Shown here piece after piece: positions 55,046-57,794 of a stretch of 64,000 bases of DNA. The stretch is taken from contig NZ_CP036266.1 of assembly GCF_007744075.1 (NCBI RefSeq), forward strand, positions 186,001 to 250,000, read 5' to 3'. The translations under genes were made by a program, and so were the position numbers. Under the pieces are notes generated by a model that ran no database searches, was not told the origin of the DNA, and saw only the letters and a list, made by a program, of their open reading frames with translations. The stretch comes from Gimesia chilikensis (lineage in GTDB: Bacteria > Planctomycetota > Planctomycetia > Planctomycetales > Planctomycetaceae). Numbering within the stretch: position 1 is the stretch's first letter; every line of letters starts with the position of its first letter.

Positions 55046-55116
55046 GCCTTGCGGGTGTGATGGATGCACGATGGTCTTCGGAACCATTAGACGGGGTTCG
55101 ATTCCCTGGCGGGGTA
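55046..55116 (+). tRNA. tRNA-Arg (anticodon UCG)
   Basis: A full cloverleaf can be drawn: acceptor GCCTTGC/GCGGGGT (several G-U pairs), D-arm GTGT-GATGGAT-GCAC, anticodon arm ATGGT-CTTCGGA-ACCAT with anticodon TCG at 55078-55080, short variable region, T-arm CGGGG-TTCGATT-CCCTG, and A73. CCA is not encoded. The D-arm style (GTGTGATGGATGCAC) resembles tRNA-Arg genes of phages. The G-U-rich acceptor stem is weak, so a degraded or specialised tRNA cannot be excluded. Confidence 0.75.
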
Positions 55117-55129
55117 CTTGAGTAAAACT

Positions 55130-55201
55130 GACGCTGGAGCCAGATGGCCAGGCGACTGCCTGCAAAGCAGTTCTAAGTGGGTTCGACTCCCACCGGCGTC
55201 T
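55130..55201 (+). tRNA. tRNA-Cys (anticodon GCA)
   Basis: A good cloverleaf: acceptor GACGCTG/CGGCGTC, D-arm GCC-AGATGGCCA-GGC, anticodon arm ACTGC-CTGCAAA-GCAGT with anticodon GCA, T-arm GTGGG-TTCGACT-CCCAC, and discriminator T73, the tRNA-Cys identity base. No encoded CCA. It lies 13 bp after the tRNA-Arg gene and 4 bp before the first Y-RNA-like unit, so one primary transcript is likely. Position 8 is G instead of the usual T. Confidence 0.9.
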
Positions 55202-55205
55202 TAAA

Positions 55206-55280
55206 CCAGCCAACTGCCGATGCGGACTACATCTTTCTGTCAAAAAGAACCGATGTCTGTGTCATTCCTTCGTTGGCCGG
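55206..55280 (+). ncRNA. Y-RNA-like unit 1
   Basis: A 9-bp closing stem (CCAGCCAAC 55206-55214 with GTTGGCCGG 55272-55280, one A-C mismatch) encloses TGCCGATGCGGACTACAT on the 5' side and CTTC just before the 3' stem strand. These two conserved elements recur in the next units. An inner stem ACATC/GATGT closes a small loop. The unit ends in TTTG. It is short, with no tRNA-like insert. The assignment to Y RNA rests on the shared motif and on the rsr gene downstream. Confidence 0.65.
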
Positions 55281-55287
55281 TTTGTTG

Positions 55288-55474
55288 AAAATCCAACTGC
55301 CTGTCGGGATTACATTATGACGGTCCTAAGGTAGCTAACCTGGAGTGATCCAGGGAAGGTGAGCGCAACGGCATCTCTGTGAGATGGTCTGGCGCGTGTC
55401 GACTGACGGTTTCACATGCGACCGATCAGGACGGCCGAAGAGGCAACAATCTCGATGCCCCTTCGTTGGGTTTT
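55288..55474 (+). ncRNA. Y-RNA-like unit 2, with a 23S-like stretch
   Basis: A 10-bp closing stem (AAAATCCAAC 55288-55297 with GTTGGGTTTT 55465-55474) encloses CTGCC TGTCGGGATTACATT on the 5' side and CTTC on the 3' side, the shared unit motif. The insert is about 140 nt. From 55317 to 55338 it reads ATGACGGTCCTAAGGTAGC plus TAA, close to the 23S rRNA segment after helix 69. Further hairpins follow (CCTGG/CCAGG at 55339-55354, CATCTC-TGT-GAGATG at 55372-55386). The 3' stem strand runs into a T4-A7 tract. Confidence 0.65.
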
Positions 55475-55484
55475 AAAAAAAGAC

Positions 55485-55630
55485 ATGACCGACTGCCGAT
55501 CTGGAGTACATGGCTTACGACCCGGGGGTTGTGGGTTCGAGTCCCACCAGCGCTATTTCGCAAAGCGAGTCGCGCCGTAGCTCAATGGTAGAGCACCGTA
55601 GAAACTCTGGTTCACCACTTCGTCGGTTGT
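55485..55630 (+). ncRNA. Y-RNA-like unit 3 with tRNA mimic (YrlA-like)
   Basis: The closing stem ATGACCGAC/GTCGGTTGT holds TGCCGATCTGGAGTACATGG on the 5' side and CCACTTC on the 3' side. The insert is a permuted tRNA body: T-arm GTGGG-TTCGAGT-CCCAC (55531-55547), then CAGCGC, an 18-nt loop and GCGCCG forming an acceptor-like stem (one C-A mismatch), then D-arm GCTC-AATGGTA-GAGC (55580-55594). The anticodon arm is replaced by the Ro-binding stem. This is the organisation described for bacterial YrlA RNAs, which mimic tRNA and are encoded next to rsr. Confidence 0.85.
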
Positions 55631-55738: not shown

Positions 55739-55881
55739 GACCGACTGCCGAAGGGGAGTACATAGTGATCTGTTAGTTGTGGGTTCGAATCCCACCAGCG
55801 CCGCGTGCAACCGCACAACACGTTGTAGCTTTAATGGTAGAAGCATCAGAAGAAAACTCTCTTTACACAACTTCGTCGGTC
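55739..55881 (+). ncRNA. Y-RNA-like unit 4 with tRNA mimic (YrlA-like)
   Basis: A perfect 7-bp closing stem GACCGAC (55739-55745)/GTCGGTC (55875-55881), followed by TTTCTT, holds TGCCGAAGGGGAGTACATAG on the 5' side and CTTC on the 3' side. The insert again carries a T-arm (GTGGG-TTCGAAT-CCCAC, 55779-55795), an acceptor-like stem region closed by a loop (GCGTG...CACG) and a D-arm (GCTT...AAGC, 55828-55844, loop containing GG). Same permuted-tRNA architecture as unit 3 but diverged in sequence. Confidence 0.82.
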
Positions 55882-55895
55882 TTTCTTAAGCGACT

Positions 55896-56044
55896 CACTC
55901 GACTGCTGGAGTGGAGTACATGGTTTCGCTGGTTCAATTCCTGCCCGGCCCACTGAATATTTAAATCGGGGCCGGACCCTGGACTCCGCGTGCGCGCGGA
56001 GAGGCAGGGTGGGACTCTGCTCGAATACCTCGTCGAGTGCTTTT
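55896..56044 (+). ncRNA. Y-RNA-like unit 5, degenerate tRNA mimic
   Basis: A perfect 8-bp closing stem CACTCGAC (55896-55903)/GTCGAGTG (56032-56039), then CTTTT. The 5' side has TGCTGGAGTGGAGTACATGG, a variant of the unit motif. The insert has a weakened T-arm (GCTGG-TTCAATT-CCTGC, one T-T mismatch), an acceptor-like stem CCGGCCC/GGGCCGG and, in place of a D-arm, an ACCCTG/CAGGGT stem topped by CTCCGCG-TGCG-CGCGGAG. The 3' side has CCTC instead of CTTC. Confidence 0.65.
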
Positions 56045-56052
56045 ATTGAAGC

Positions 56053-56105
56053 TGCATTTAAGGGGTCTGGTCTCTTAAATAAGGAGACCAGACCCCTTAA
56101 ATGCA
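56053..56105. repeat. Perfect 22-bp inverted repeat
   Basis: Arms at 56053-56074 and 56084-56105 are exact reverse complements (core AAGGGGTCTGGTCTC / GAGACCAGACCCCTT) around a 9-nt loop. There is no T tract. It may be a REP/MITE-type insertion between the Y array and rsr, a processing site, or a strong folding barrier. Only one copy is seen in the window. Confidence 0.85.
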
Positions 56106-56116
56106 AACTTTGCACA

Positions 56117-56170
56117 GGATCCGGCTGCCGTCAGTGGGGACTGATGCGTCTTTCGCCGGACCCGTTTTTT
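56117..56170 (+). promoter_or_regulatory. Minimal Y-like hairpin in the rsr leader, possible autoregulatory element or attenuator
   Basis: GGATCCGGC (56117-56125) pairs with GCCGGACCC (56155-56163) with one A-C mismatch, the same stem geometry as unit 1. Inside are TGCCG, a TCAGT-GGGG-ACTGA hairpin and CTTTC directly before the 3' strand, that is, a minimal version of the unit motif. It is followed by GTTTTTT and then by the rsr ribosome binding site at 56171-56178. Rsr could bind its own leader, or the hairpin and T run could act as a terminator or attenuator. Confidence 0.55.
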
Positions 56171-56183
56171 AAAGGAGGCTATG

Positions 56184-57794
56184 ATGGCCAACAAGACTCT
56201 GTTTTCAAATCGCCAGAATCAGTATCCACGTGCGGACTCGCGTAACGAGGCCGGCGGTCGCGCTTATAAATTCGAGCCGAAGCATGCGCTCGCGCAGCTG
56301 GCGGCAACCGGAACGTTCAACAACGTGTTCTACGCCGGTGCGCAGACACAGCTGGATACTCTGCGGACGCTGATTGACCAGGTGGACGATGACCGCTACC
56401 TGGCACAGCTGGCCGTGTATGCGCGGGAGCGGGCCTGCATGAAGGACATGCCGGCAGCGCTGCTGGCGACACTGTCGACGCGGGACACCGAGCTGATGCA
56501 CCGTGTGTTTGATCGCGTGGTTGACAACGGTCGTGTACTGCGGACGCTGTTCCAGATGATCCGTTCGGGTCAGTTTGGTCGAACCGGTCTGTCATCGAGT
56601 CTGCAGCGGGCGTTTCAGCGCTGGCTGAACGAGGCTTCGGTGGGTCGACTGCTGTCGGCTTCGATCGGTCACGATCCGAGCCTGCGCGACGTACTGCGAC
56701 TGGCACGACCAACGCCTGTCGACAACGAGCGACGTGCGCTGTTCGGCTGGCTGACGGATAAGGAGCCTGCCAAGTGGGCACCGGCGACCGCAGCGGATCT
56801 GCCACGGCAGGTGCGACAGCTGATCGCGTATCGTCAGGCAGAGACTGACCAGGCGCAGGCAGAGATCGTTGAGAATCTGTCTGTGCGGTGGGATCTGCTG
56901 GCAGATGCGGCCAAGAGTCCACTGGTCTGGAAGGCGCTGGCCCGACAGATGGGACCACAGGCGCTGCGGATGAACCTGAATACGCTGCTGCGACACGACG
57001 TGTTCCAGGATGCGGCGCTGGTGGACTATGTGGCGGACCGTCTGGCGGACGCGGAGGCGATCCGTCAGTCGCGACAGTTTCCGTACCAGTTCCTGGCGGC
57101 TTATCTGAATGTGAGTGCCGAAGTGCCTCGCAAGATTCAGACGGCGCTGCACCAGGCGGCTGAGCTTGCCTGCGGTAACGTGCCGGAGCTGCCTGGTCCG
57201 GTCGTGATCGGTCTGGATACGTCCGGTTCGATGCAGTGTCCGGTTACCGGCTGGCAGCGTCGTGGCGCTACAAGTCGGATGACGTGTGTGGATGCTGCGG
57301 CACTGTTTGCGGCGGCTGTGCTGCGACGTAACCCGGACAGCGTGGTGATTCCATTCGATACCCGGCCTTACCAGGCCCGCCTGGATCCGTCGGACTCGAT
57401 TCTGAGTCTGTCGGCACGGCTGGCGAAGTACGGCGGCGGTGGTACCGACTGTTCGATCCCGCTGAACGTGGCCAACACGAAGCTCAGCAAGCGTGCGTTC
57501 GCCGGCTGCGTACTGGTGAGCGACAACGAGAGCTGGGTGCGGAAGGGCCGTTACGGTTCGACCGGCGTGATGACCGAGTGGCAGCGGTTCATCGAGAACC
57601 AGCGGCGACTGGGCGTGACGGATCCGAAGCTGGTATGCATCGACATCCAGCCTTACGGTTCGTCACAGGCTCCGGAGCGCGACGACATCCTGAACATGGG
57701 CGGCTTCAGTGACGCGGTGTTCAACGTGGTGGCGTCGTTCCTGGGCAACGACGCCGGCCGGTTCGTCGCCGAGGTCGAGTCGATCGAAATCTGA
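56184..57794 (+). CDS. rsr: Ro60-like RNA-binding protein Rsr (TROVE + vWA)
   Basis: I prefer ATG 56184 over 56181 because of spacing (5 nt) from the AAAGGAGG ribosome binding site. The 536-residue protein has an N-terminal TROVE HEAT-repeat ring (about residues 25-350; FEPKHALAQLAATGTF, ARERACMKDMPAALLATL) and a C-terminal vWA domain with the MIDAS motif DTSGSM (about residue 350). Ro proteins bind misfolded RNAs in the ring's cavity and Y RNAs on its outside; in Deinococcus, Rsr with Y RNA tethers PNPase and helps 23S rRNA maturation and starvation decay. The upstream Y-RNA-like array fits this role. Confidence 0.95.
   Translation: MANKTLFSNRQNQYPRADSRNEAGGRAYKFEPKHALAQLAATGTFNNVFYAGAQTQLDTLRTLIDQVDDDRYLAQLAVYARERACMKDMPAALLATLSTRDTELMHRVFDRVVDNGRVLRTLFQMIRSGQFGRTGLSSSLQRAFQRWLNEASVGRLLSASIGHDPSLRDVLRLARPTPVDNERRALFGWLTDKEPAKWAPATAADLPRQVRQLIAYRQAETDQAQAEIVENLSVRWDLLADAAKSPLVWKALARQMGPQALRMNLNTLLRHDVFQDAALVDYVADRLADAEAIRQSRQFPYQFLAAYLNVSAEVPRKIQTALHQAAELACGNVPELPGPVVIGLDTSGSMQCPVTGWQRRGATSRMTCVDAAALFAAAVLRRNPDSVVIPFDTRPYQARLDPSDSILSLSARLAKYGGGGTDCSIPLNVANTKLSKRAFAGCVLVSDNESWVRKGRYGSTGVMTEWQRFIENQRRLGVTDPKLVCIDIQPYGSSQAPERDDILNMGGFSDAVFNVVASFLGNDAGRFVAEVESIEI

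Follow-up and report, generated by a model that had tools for sequence, protein, structure and literature searches.

A predicted Y RNA with a 23S rRNA-like core in a multi-RNA Ro locus of Gimesia chilikensis

When a bacterial Ro locus encodes several Y RNAs with different inserts, what might each of them present to the Ro protein? The question is raised by a locus at positions 55046 to 57794 of a 64,000-nucleotide (nt) stretch of the planctomycete Gimesia chilikensis (contig NZ_CP036266.1, positions 186,001 to 250,000), referred to here as the window; the tRNA genes, Y-RNA-like units, and rsr described below lie on its plus strand. Two transfer RNA (tRNA) genes are followed on one strand by five Y-RNA-like units, a degenerate sixth unit, and rsr, which encodes a relative of Ro60. 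Y RNAs that mimic tRNA and are encoded beside rsr are already known, as excerpts of reviews state (PMC8394870, PMC7790460). The second unit of the array (unit 2, 55288 to 55474) is a predicted Y RNA that is ribosomal RNA (rRNA)-like, not tRNA-like, with a core resembling domain IV of 23S rRNA. A first-pass annotation, made from the sequence of the window, had described a multi-RNA Ro locus, and this description holds, as the units share a stem and motifs and carry different inserts; the 23S-like nature of unit 2 is the main point that it did not contain. We regard the anatomy of the locus as close to certain. The purpose of Ro particles is still largely open, and a Y RNA that copies helix 69 (H69) of 23S rRNA would offer a defined, testable link between Ro and rRNA.

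The 23S rRNA-like core of unit 2

Unit 2 contains TGACGGTCCTAAGGTAGC, which corresponds to the 3′ strand of H69 and the junction behind that helix. The rRNA-like core located by sequence match, TTATGACGGTCCTAAGGTAGC (55315 to 55335), comprises the H69 3′ strand and the junction between H69 and helix 71 (H71), and unit 2 matches nt 1915 to 1937 of the 23S rRNA of Escherichia coli, the reference for comparison, at 91% (blastn). In the genome as far as it could be searched (its own 23S is partly given as N), the 14-mer CGGTCCTAAGGTAG has a single occurrence, in unit 2. Of an initial set of 53 rsr loci, 12 contain it, a count that includes the window locus and two genomes present twice. Model R1, of which unit 2 is itself a part, scored 124.7 bits at 55289 to 55472, and the fold of the unit had a z of −3.09. 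The 23S record of another E. coli genome (A29, locus L092) shows small gaps relative to K-12 near H69-H71, perhaps a sequencing error, and was not used as a reference.

The same match was found across the class of units to which unit 2 belongs, termed R. When 20 R units were compared to E. coli 23S by blastn, every best match fell within nt 1900 to 1976 (E values of 1.9e-7 to 0.027). When the segments of each unit were tested one by one, that of the H69 3′ strand and junction was best placed at nt 1919 to 1938 of 23S in all 29 R units, with scores of 21 to 38 in 23S versus 12 to 18 in 16S. Profiles of seven unit classes were also compared to E. coli rRNA, and R alone was inside the inclusion threshold (E = 1.6e-5). 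The six other class profiles, which form a built-in negative control, gave no match to 23S or 16S inside the threshold, the best being class t (E = 0.62, in 16S and on the opposite strand). Rfam searches around the arrays returned tRNA, YrlA, tmRNA, and weak chance-level matches. On these sequence comparisons, mimicry of H69 and its junction by the R units is a firm prediction. The core overlaps a known homing-endonuclease site in 23S; a remnant of a group I intron or homing site was nevertheless rejected, since the element is found repeatedly within a Y-RNA fold that covaries, in most cases next to rsr.

The likeness to domain IV (helices H67 to H71) includes the nearly identical H69 3′ strand and junction and a helix order compatible with the Rfam structure, whose line for E. 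coli describes an H67-H68-H69-H71 junction that the R-unit helices follow in order. The R element differs from domain IV in being miniaturized and, in the units designated type I, apparently permuted. In addition, its H68 and H67 sides are capped by short hairpins, and the stretch from the junction to H71 (AAATTCCT in E. coli) is shortened.

Covariation of the R fold and the position of the H69 strands

The R fold covaries among relatives. Its elements are the closing stem, an inner Y stem, H69, an H71-like hairpin, and H67-like and H68-like stems that are each capped. The structure was written by hand on a MAFFT alignment (A1) of 18 of the 20 R units, one unit with a long insert and one near-duplicate being left out. 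In this alignment, 83.1% of cells were paired and 107 cells were changed on both sides, compared to 31 to 50% (at most 50.3%) and 16 to 48 cells, respectively, in controls with slid partners. In the model alignment of 29 R units, 88.2% of cells were paired and 209 were changed on both sides, versus 30 to 49% (at most 49.1%) and 24 to 47 in the slid controls; this alignment is fitted to the structure and so leans towards it, and its 29 sources were chosen for holding R units.

Among the 29 units, seven of the eight pairs of the closing stem were changed on both sides, with 93.5% of cells paired, a count that covers the R class alone; the compensatory changes that the first-pass annotation had proposed looking for in the closing stems of relatives are therefore present for this class. 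All 18 R units first chosen by rRNA-like sequence alone also passed the unit finder, which demanded at least six closing pairs. The H71-like helix (helix 4) had four of five pairs changed on both sides among the 29 units; in unit 2, it is the hairpin CCTGGA-GTGA-TCCAGG at the H71 position (55339 to 55354), which has no sequence match to H71. When arms were dealt between units (16 of the 18 alignment rows, relatedness ignored), the fraction of Watson-Crick cells in the closing stem, 0.906, compared with a mean of 0.619 and was equaled in 0 of 2,000 deals. Dealing likewise destroyed the H71-like and H67-like helices (0 of 2,000 as high) and weakened the inner Y stem (6 of 2,000) and H69 (2 of 2,000).

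The two strands of H69 apparently do not occupy their native order in the type-I units. The strand that pairs with the core (ACGGACGGCCGTAA, resembling the H69 5′ strand) is located at the far 3′ side of these units, while its E. coli counterpart, AAACGGCGGCCGTAAC, sits 5′ of the H69 loop; because of this far-end position, the rRNA element is apparently permuted. The helix itself (helix 3) had 93.5% of cells paired over the 29 units, and the pairing strand was best placed at 23S nt 1901 to 1914 in 11 of the 18 type-I units, one of which (L031) tied with other places. In unit 2, GGACGGCCGA (55429 to 55438) is found where a permuted H69 5′ strand would lie, and it includes a GGCCG that could form pairs with the CGGTC of the core. 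This unit and a few more have GGCCG in that position but score elsewhere as well or better. A model built from 12 of 18 units turned to native order (A3), with no rRNA in the build, found nt 1877 to 1991 of E. coli 23S at 22.1 bits (E = 6.3e-6; next best, 8.3), compared to 15.3 bits (E = 0.0015) for the unrotated model. The rotated-model alignment gains the H69 5′ strand, skips H71, and puts the H67 strand off its homologous site. Judging from the anatomy of this common subtype, a permutation of the rRNA element is probable, and the Y stem would then stand in for the H69 loop, as in YrlA for the anticodon arm. Such a form, if true, would be an unusual natural circularly permuted rRNA element and could be used to find junction-reading proteins.

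Linkage to rsr and possible roles of the R insert

The distribution of R units was estimated in three samples; surveys of more than 40 genomes used stricter filters with few candidates scored each, and their counts are therefore lower bounds. In the family sample, rsr was found in 43 of 120 genomes (E ≤ 1e-3) and matches to the R model in 22 (E ≤ 0.01), the weaker of which, where inspected, were other Y units. R units scoring above 60 bits were present in 16 of the 26 genomes with a close rsr (E ≤ 1e-170) versus 1 of the 94 others (p = 2.6e-12, relatedness ignored). The latter group includes two genomes with short rsr pieces only (G087 and G115), and the array of its single R genome (G064) runs into a contig end. 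In the class sample, R was detected in 41 of 397 genomes (E ≤ 1e-8) and rsr in 89 (E ≤ 1e-20). In 32 of the 41 R genomes, the R unit precedes rsr by no more than about 2.1 kb and shares its contig and strand; three more have rsr on another contig. The phylum sample yielded R model matches in 11 of 392 genomes (E ≤ 0.001). One of these genomes belongs to another class; its match scored 41.2 bits, and its array, which includes an R-like unit, follows an rsr that is 44% identical. This was the only case among 198 genomes of that class. The named strain Aeoliella straminimaris also has an R unit (locus L045).

Four genomes of one other family carry a stand-alone R RNA with Y-like ends, judged by eye, in a stretch without rsr (L168 in G873, L169 in G729, L170 in G788, and L171 in G870), and Rfam gave no match above cut-off on these four stretches. 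A TROVE protein is encoded elsewhere in two of these genomes; none was found in the other two, one of which is only 68% complete. Where rsr is approximately 41 to 44% identical, Y-like units are located downstream rather than upstream of it (L141 in G329, L142 to L149, L046, and L047). A phage origin was also considered and rejected: viral contigs gave one locus with an rsr relative and none for two R patterns.

The inserts may be read as baits, by analogy with the literature on YrlA, Rsr, and PNPase. According to excerpts of that literature, YrlA uses its stem to bind Rsr, DusA and TruB modify its tRNA-like part (PMC8394870), and Rsr, acting together with Y RNA and PNPase, breaks down structured RNA, rRNA included (PMC8394870, PMC6181284). 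In the proposed mechanism, the RNAs would be transcribed and cut into single Y RNAs, perhaps out of one transcript by tRNA-processing enzymes as the first-pass annotation had suggested, Rsr would hold the common Y stem, and each insert would show a different bait. A tRNA-like bait would draw tRNA-binding enzymes. The H69-like bait would draw a factor that recognizes the H69 junction, either a modification enzyme of the large subunit or one of its assembly factors, conceivably RluD or a large-subunit assembly GTPase; CCTAAGGTAGCGA, the most constant unpaired stretch, is the predicted contact. The Ro or Ro-PNPase particle would thereby be steered to tRNA and to misassembled 23S rRNA. That the R unit acts as an rRNA mimic tethering Rsr to a 23S rRNA-binding factor is, as a whole explanation, one to which we give an even chance; the recruitment step considered by itself, which draws on the analogy, is conceivable but somewhat short of that. 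More tentatively still, Ro could be a modular display platform whose Y RNA inserts are circularly permuted mimics of translation RNAs, the Rsr-binding stem replacing the decoding part of each mimicked RNA. The 23S-type RNA would then be an adaptor that links Ro with a large-subunit rRNA factor and thereby with rRNA quality control, and it could also occur as a free-standing gene. A Y RNA that copies the H69 core would suggest that Y RNAs, as a general rule, display mimics of abundant translation RNAs, of which tRNA mimicry would be one example.

Among the closest known systems is RYPER (Rsr-Y RNA-PNPase) of Deinococcus radiodurans, which likewise combines a Ro protein with a Y RNA and includes the nearest solved chain (PDB 2nvo). 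RYPER acts on rRNA, according to excerpts on that system, and these differ from the present case in mentioning no 23S-like Y RNA. Among the literature matches listed, no publication on a 23S-mimicking Y RNA was apparent from titles and the start of abstracts; subscription papers are thinly covered, making this weak evidence of absence.

Several observations weigh against the reading of unit 2 as a domain IV mimic that serves Rsr. Sequence similarity to 23S is confined to H69 and its junction. Neither the H71-to-GAATGGCG segment nor the H67 segment was best placed at the homologous 23S position in any of the 29 R units, so the putative equivalences of H71 and H67 are predicted from helix order and pairing, as is the full domain IV reading (H67, H68, and H71). 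The H68-like stem was not clearly weakened by arm dealing (119 of 2,000 as high). As for the permutation, the putative H69 5′ strand was best at nt 1901 to 1914 in none of the 11 units outside type I, the window unit included, and some of these 11 keep a whole H69 hairpin in native order. Linkage to rsr is also incomplete: 6 of the 41 R genomes in the class sample lack rsr at E ≤ 1e-20, four of these six hold the stand-alone RNAs of another family, and R units occur in only 35 of the 89 rsr genomes.

The main rival to the bait mechanism is a decoy or sink, in which the inserts would titrate tRNA- or rRNA-binding enzymes or toxins off their real targets. The mimics indeed lack working ends (the anticodon arm; much of the H69 loop in type I) and keep binding surfaces, and a Cell Rep. 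paper has suggested YrlA as a possible competitive inhibitor of an anticodon nuclease (excerpt of PMC7790460). A simple sink, however, would need neither the shared Y stem nor linkage to rsr, and rRNA would presumably be in excess over a single unit; we consider a decoy unlikely. The absence of an R unit at threshold in 54 of the 89 class-sample rsr genomes, together with a same-genus genome with rsr (G119, locus L079) in which only a remnant can be seen by eye, might indicate that the insert is a functionless spacer or captured rRNA fragment and that the closing stem alone matters. This is improbable, as the insert shows conservation and covariation across families and, in another family, persists as a stand-alone RNA.

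Two further explanations concern tRNA and rsr itself. In the ribosome, H69 and H71 touch tRNA, and the array combines tRNA genes with tRNA-like units; an R unit that contacts tRNAs could, with the tRNA-like units, capture tRNA for Ro. The contacting H69 loop residues are partly missing in type-I units, however, and we rate tRNA capture as highly improbable. As a cis leader controlling rsr, the array would carry mimics that report the levels of free rRNA- or tRNA-binding proteins. Mimicry of rRNA occurs in ribosomal-protein leaders, in which, as proposed for the R unit, a small RNA imitates a part of rRNA to which proteins bind, and the title of one reference presents rRNA mimicry in gene regulation as a known principle; moreover, the 3′ closing strand of the last unit starts 24 to 34 nt before rsr in many relatives. 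Ribosomal-protein leaders differ in being cis leaders of ribosomal-protein genes, whereas the R unit sits on a Y-RNA stem beside rsr, and the gene next to the array is rsr. Several units separate the R unit from rsr, the array is downstream of rsr in another clade, and some R RNAs are unlinked to rsr, which leaves the cis-leader explanation the most improbable of those considered.

The remaining array and the rsr gene

The array begins beside a tRNA-Arg (tcg) gene (55046 to 55117) and a tRNA-Cys (gca) gene (55130 to 55201), both called by ARAGORN and scoring 40.0 and 48.5 bits, respectively, against Rfam tRNA; the latter ends 2 nt before unit 1. The units share a 29-nt box, [stem]-CTGCY-n-GGANTACAT, of which five in-register copies start at 55204, 55287, 55483, 55735, and 55893. 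Each box is followed by CTTCG or CCTCG and then by a strand complementary to the unit's own start. The closing stem, 5′ motif, and 3′ CTTC noted in the first-pass annotation are thus borne out, as is the arrangement of tRNAs, array, and rsr on one strand (ARAGORN, repeat box, and Pfam). Of its "five or six" units, five are supported by box and closing stem, and the sixth is degenerate and was recognized by eye. Many relatives within the family likewise have the boxes and arrays upstream of rsr, for which reason the array is considered more than chance; with similar arrays in relatives, the number of Y RNAs is not unusual, contrary to what had been proposed.

Unit 1 (55204 to 55283), identified by repeat box and closing stem, is of the small type (class s), and no resemblance to tRNA or rRNA was found in it. 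Units 3 (55483 to 55630) and 4 (55734 to 55884) are YrlA-like, with tRNA elements in permuted order. Rfam YrlA (RF02553) scored 40.5 bits on unit 3 (E = 1.6e-6) and 29.5 bits on unit 4 (E = 0.0024), and 22.2 bits on unit 5 (55892 to 56043; E = 0.32), a class t unit recognized by its closing stem. The covariance search for YrlA that the first-pass annotation had suggested thus matched units 3 and 4, with every score below the gathering score of 69 bits, and the two units are therefore not counted as Rfam YrlA members; the best score in five scanned relatives, 45.5 bits, was also under 69. Unit 3 contains a T-arm (55531 to 55547), an acceptor-like stem, and a D-arm (55572 to 55594), the T-arm of unit 4 is at 55779 to 55795, and unit 5 has a T-arm-like loop with no D-arm recognized. 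Units 3 and 4 thus provide the tRNA-like units of a bacterial Y RNA locus, albeit below the Rfam cut-off.

The array resembles YrlA encoded with Rsr in its position beside rsr, its long closing stem, the boxes GAxTGC...GGAxxTAC and ACTTxG (compared by eye with the Rfam consensus), and the permuted T-arm, acceptor-like stem, and D-arm of units 3 and 4. It differs in scoring under the Rfam cut-off (40.5 versus 69) and in adding an rRNA-like class, small classes, and a T-arm-only class. A specific tRNA identity could not be assigned to the tRNA-like units: the best blast matches among 259 ARAGORN tRNA calls, which came from the window plus 60 loci (61 sequences in all) and in some cases overlapped Y units, were mixed (Asn, Leu, Cys, Trp, and others), and only a generic tRNA core is therefore claimed. 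An early impression that one class copies tRNA-Leu was given up for the same reason.

The rsr gene (56181 to 57794) encodes a protein of 537 amino acids. As annotated, it combines TROVE (46.3 bits; cut-off, 23) and vWA (vWA_Ro60, 48.7 bits; cut-off, 27.7) domains, both above the Pfam cut-offs, and its best solved relative is the Rsr of PDB 2nvo (E = 1.5e-21, residues 17 to 521). The protein did not reach the cut-off of the NCBIfam Rsr equivalog NF041674 (86.1 versus 900 bits). The product is a Ro60 relative outside the narrow Rsr equivalog. An RtcB gene is present in the genome, unlinked to the rsr locus, and eight open reading frames downstream of rsr (57960 to 63375) have no Pfam match at E = 0.01.

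The degenerate small unit (TCCGGC TGCC ... CTTTCGCCGGA, approximately 56117 to 56163) lies directly before the rsr ribosome-binding site and was not called by the unit finder; relatives often have a well-formed small unit just before rsr. The 3′ closing strand of the last unit in relatives, often 24 to 34 nt ahead of the rsr start, is possibly an rsr control element. Between unit 5 and the last unit, a perfect 22-nt inverted repeat with a 9-nt loop (56053 to 56105) is perhaps a small mobile element, and the gap of approximately 100 nt between units 3 and 4 (55631 to 55733) holds no recognizable unit and might be a decayed one. Promoter and terminator scans gave chance-level results only.

In the survey of unit classes, 68 loci were covered, with identical sequences counted once; the 21 calls of class o are mostly chance pairs, and the class rules missed some R units (18 called versus 29 found by the R model). 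Units of class X, whose profile had no rRNA match in E. coli 23S and 16S, share the hairpin GCGGGAGC, which by eye is within a three-way junction, and are located at L032:3882, L034:1439, L045:3863, L049:3602, L077:3499, and L090:4541. Some relatives, such as L067 and L077, have large clusters of tRNA genes ahead of the Y array, with 25 and 22 tRNA-type Rfam matches, respectively, a few of which are perhaps within Y units.

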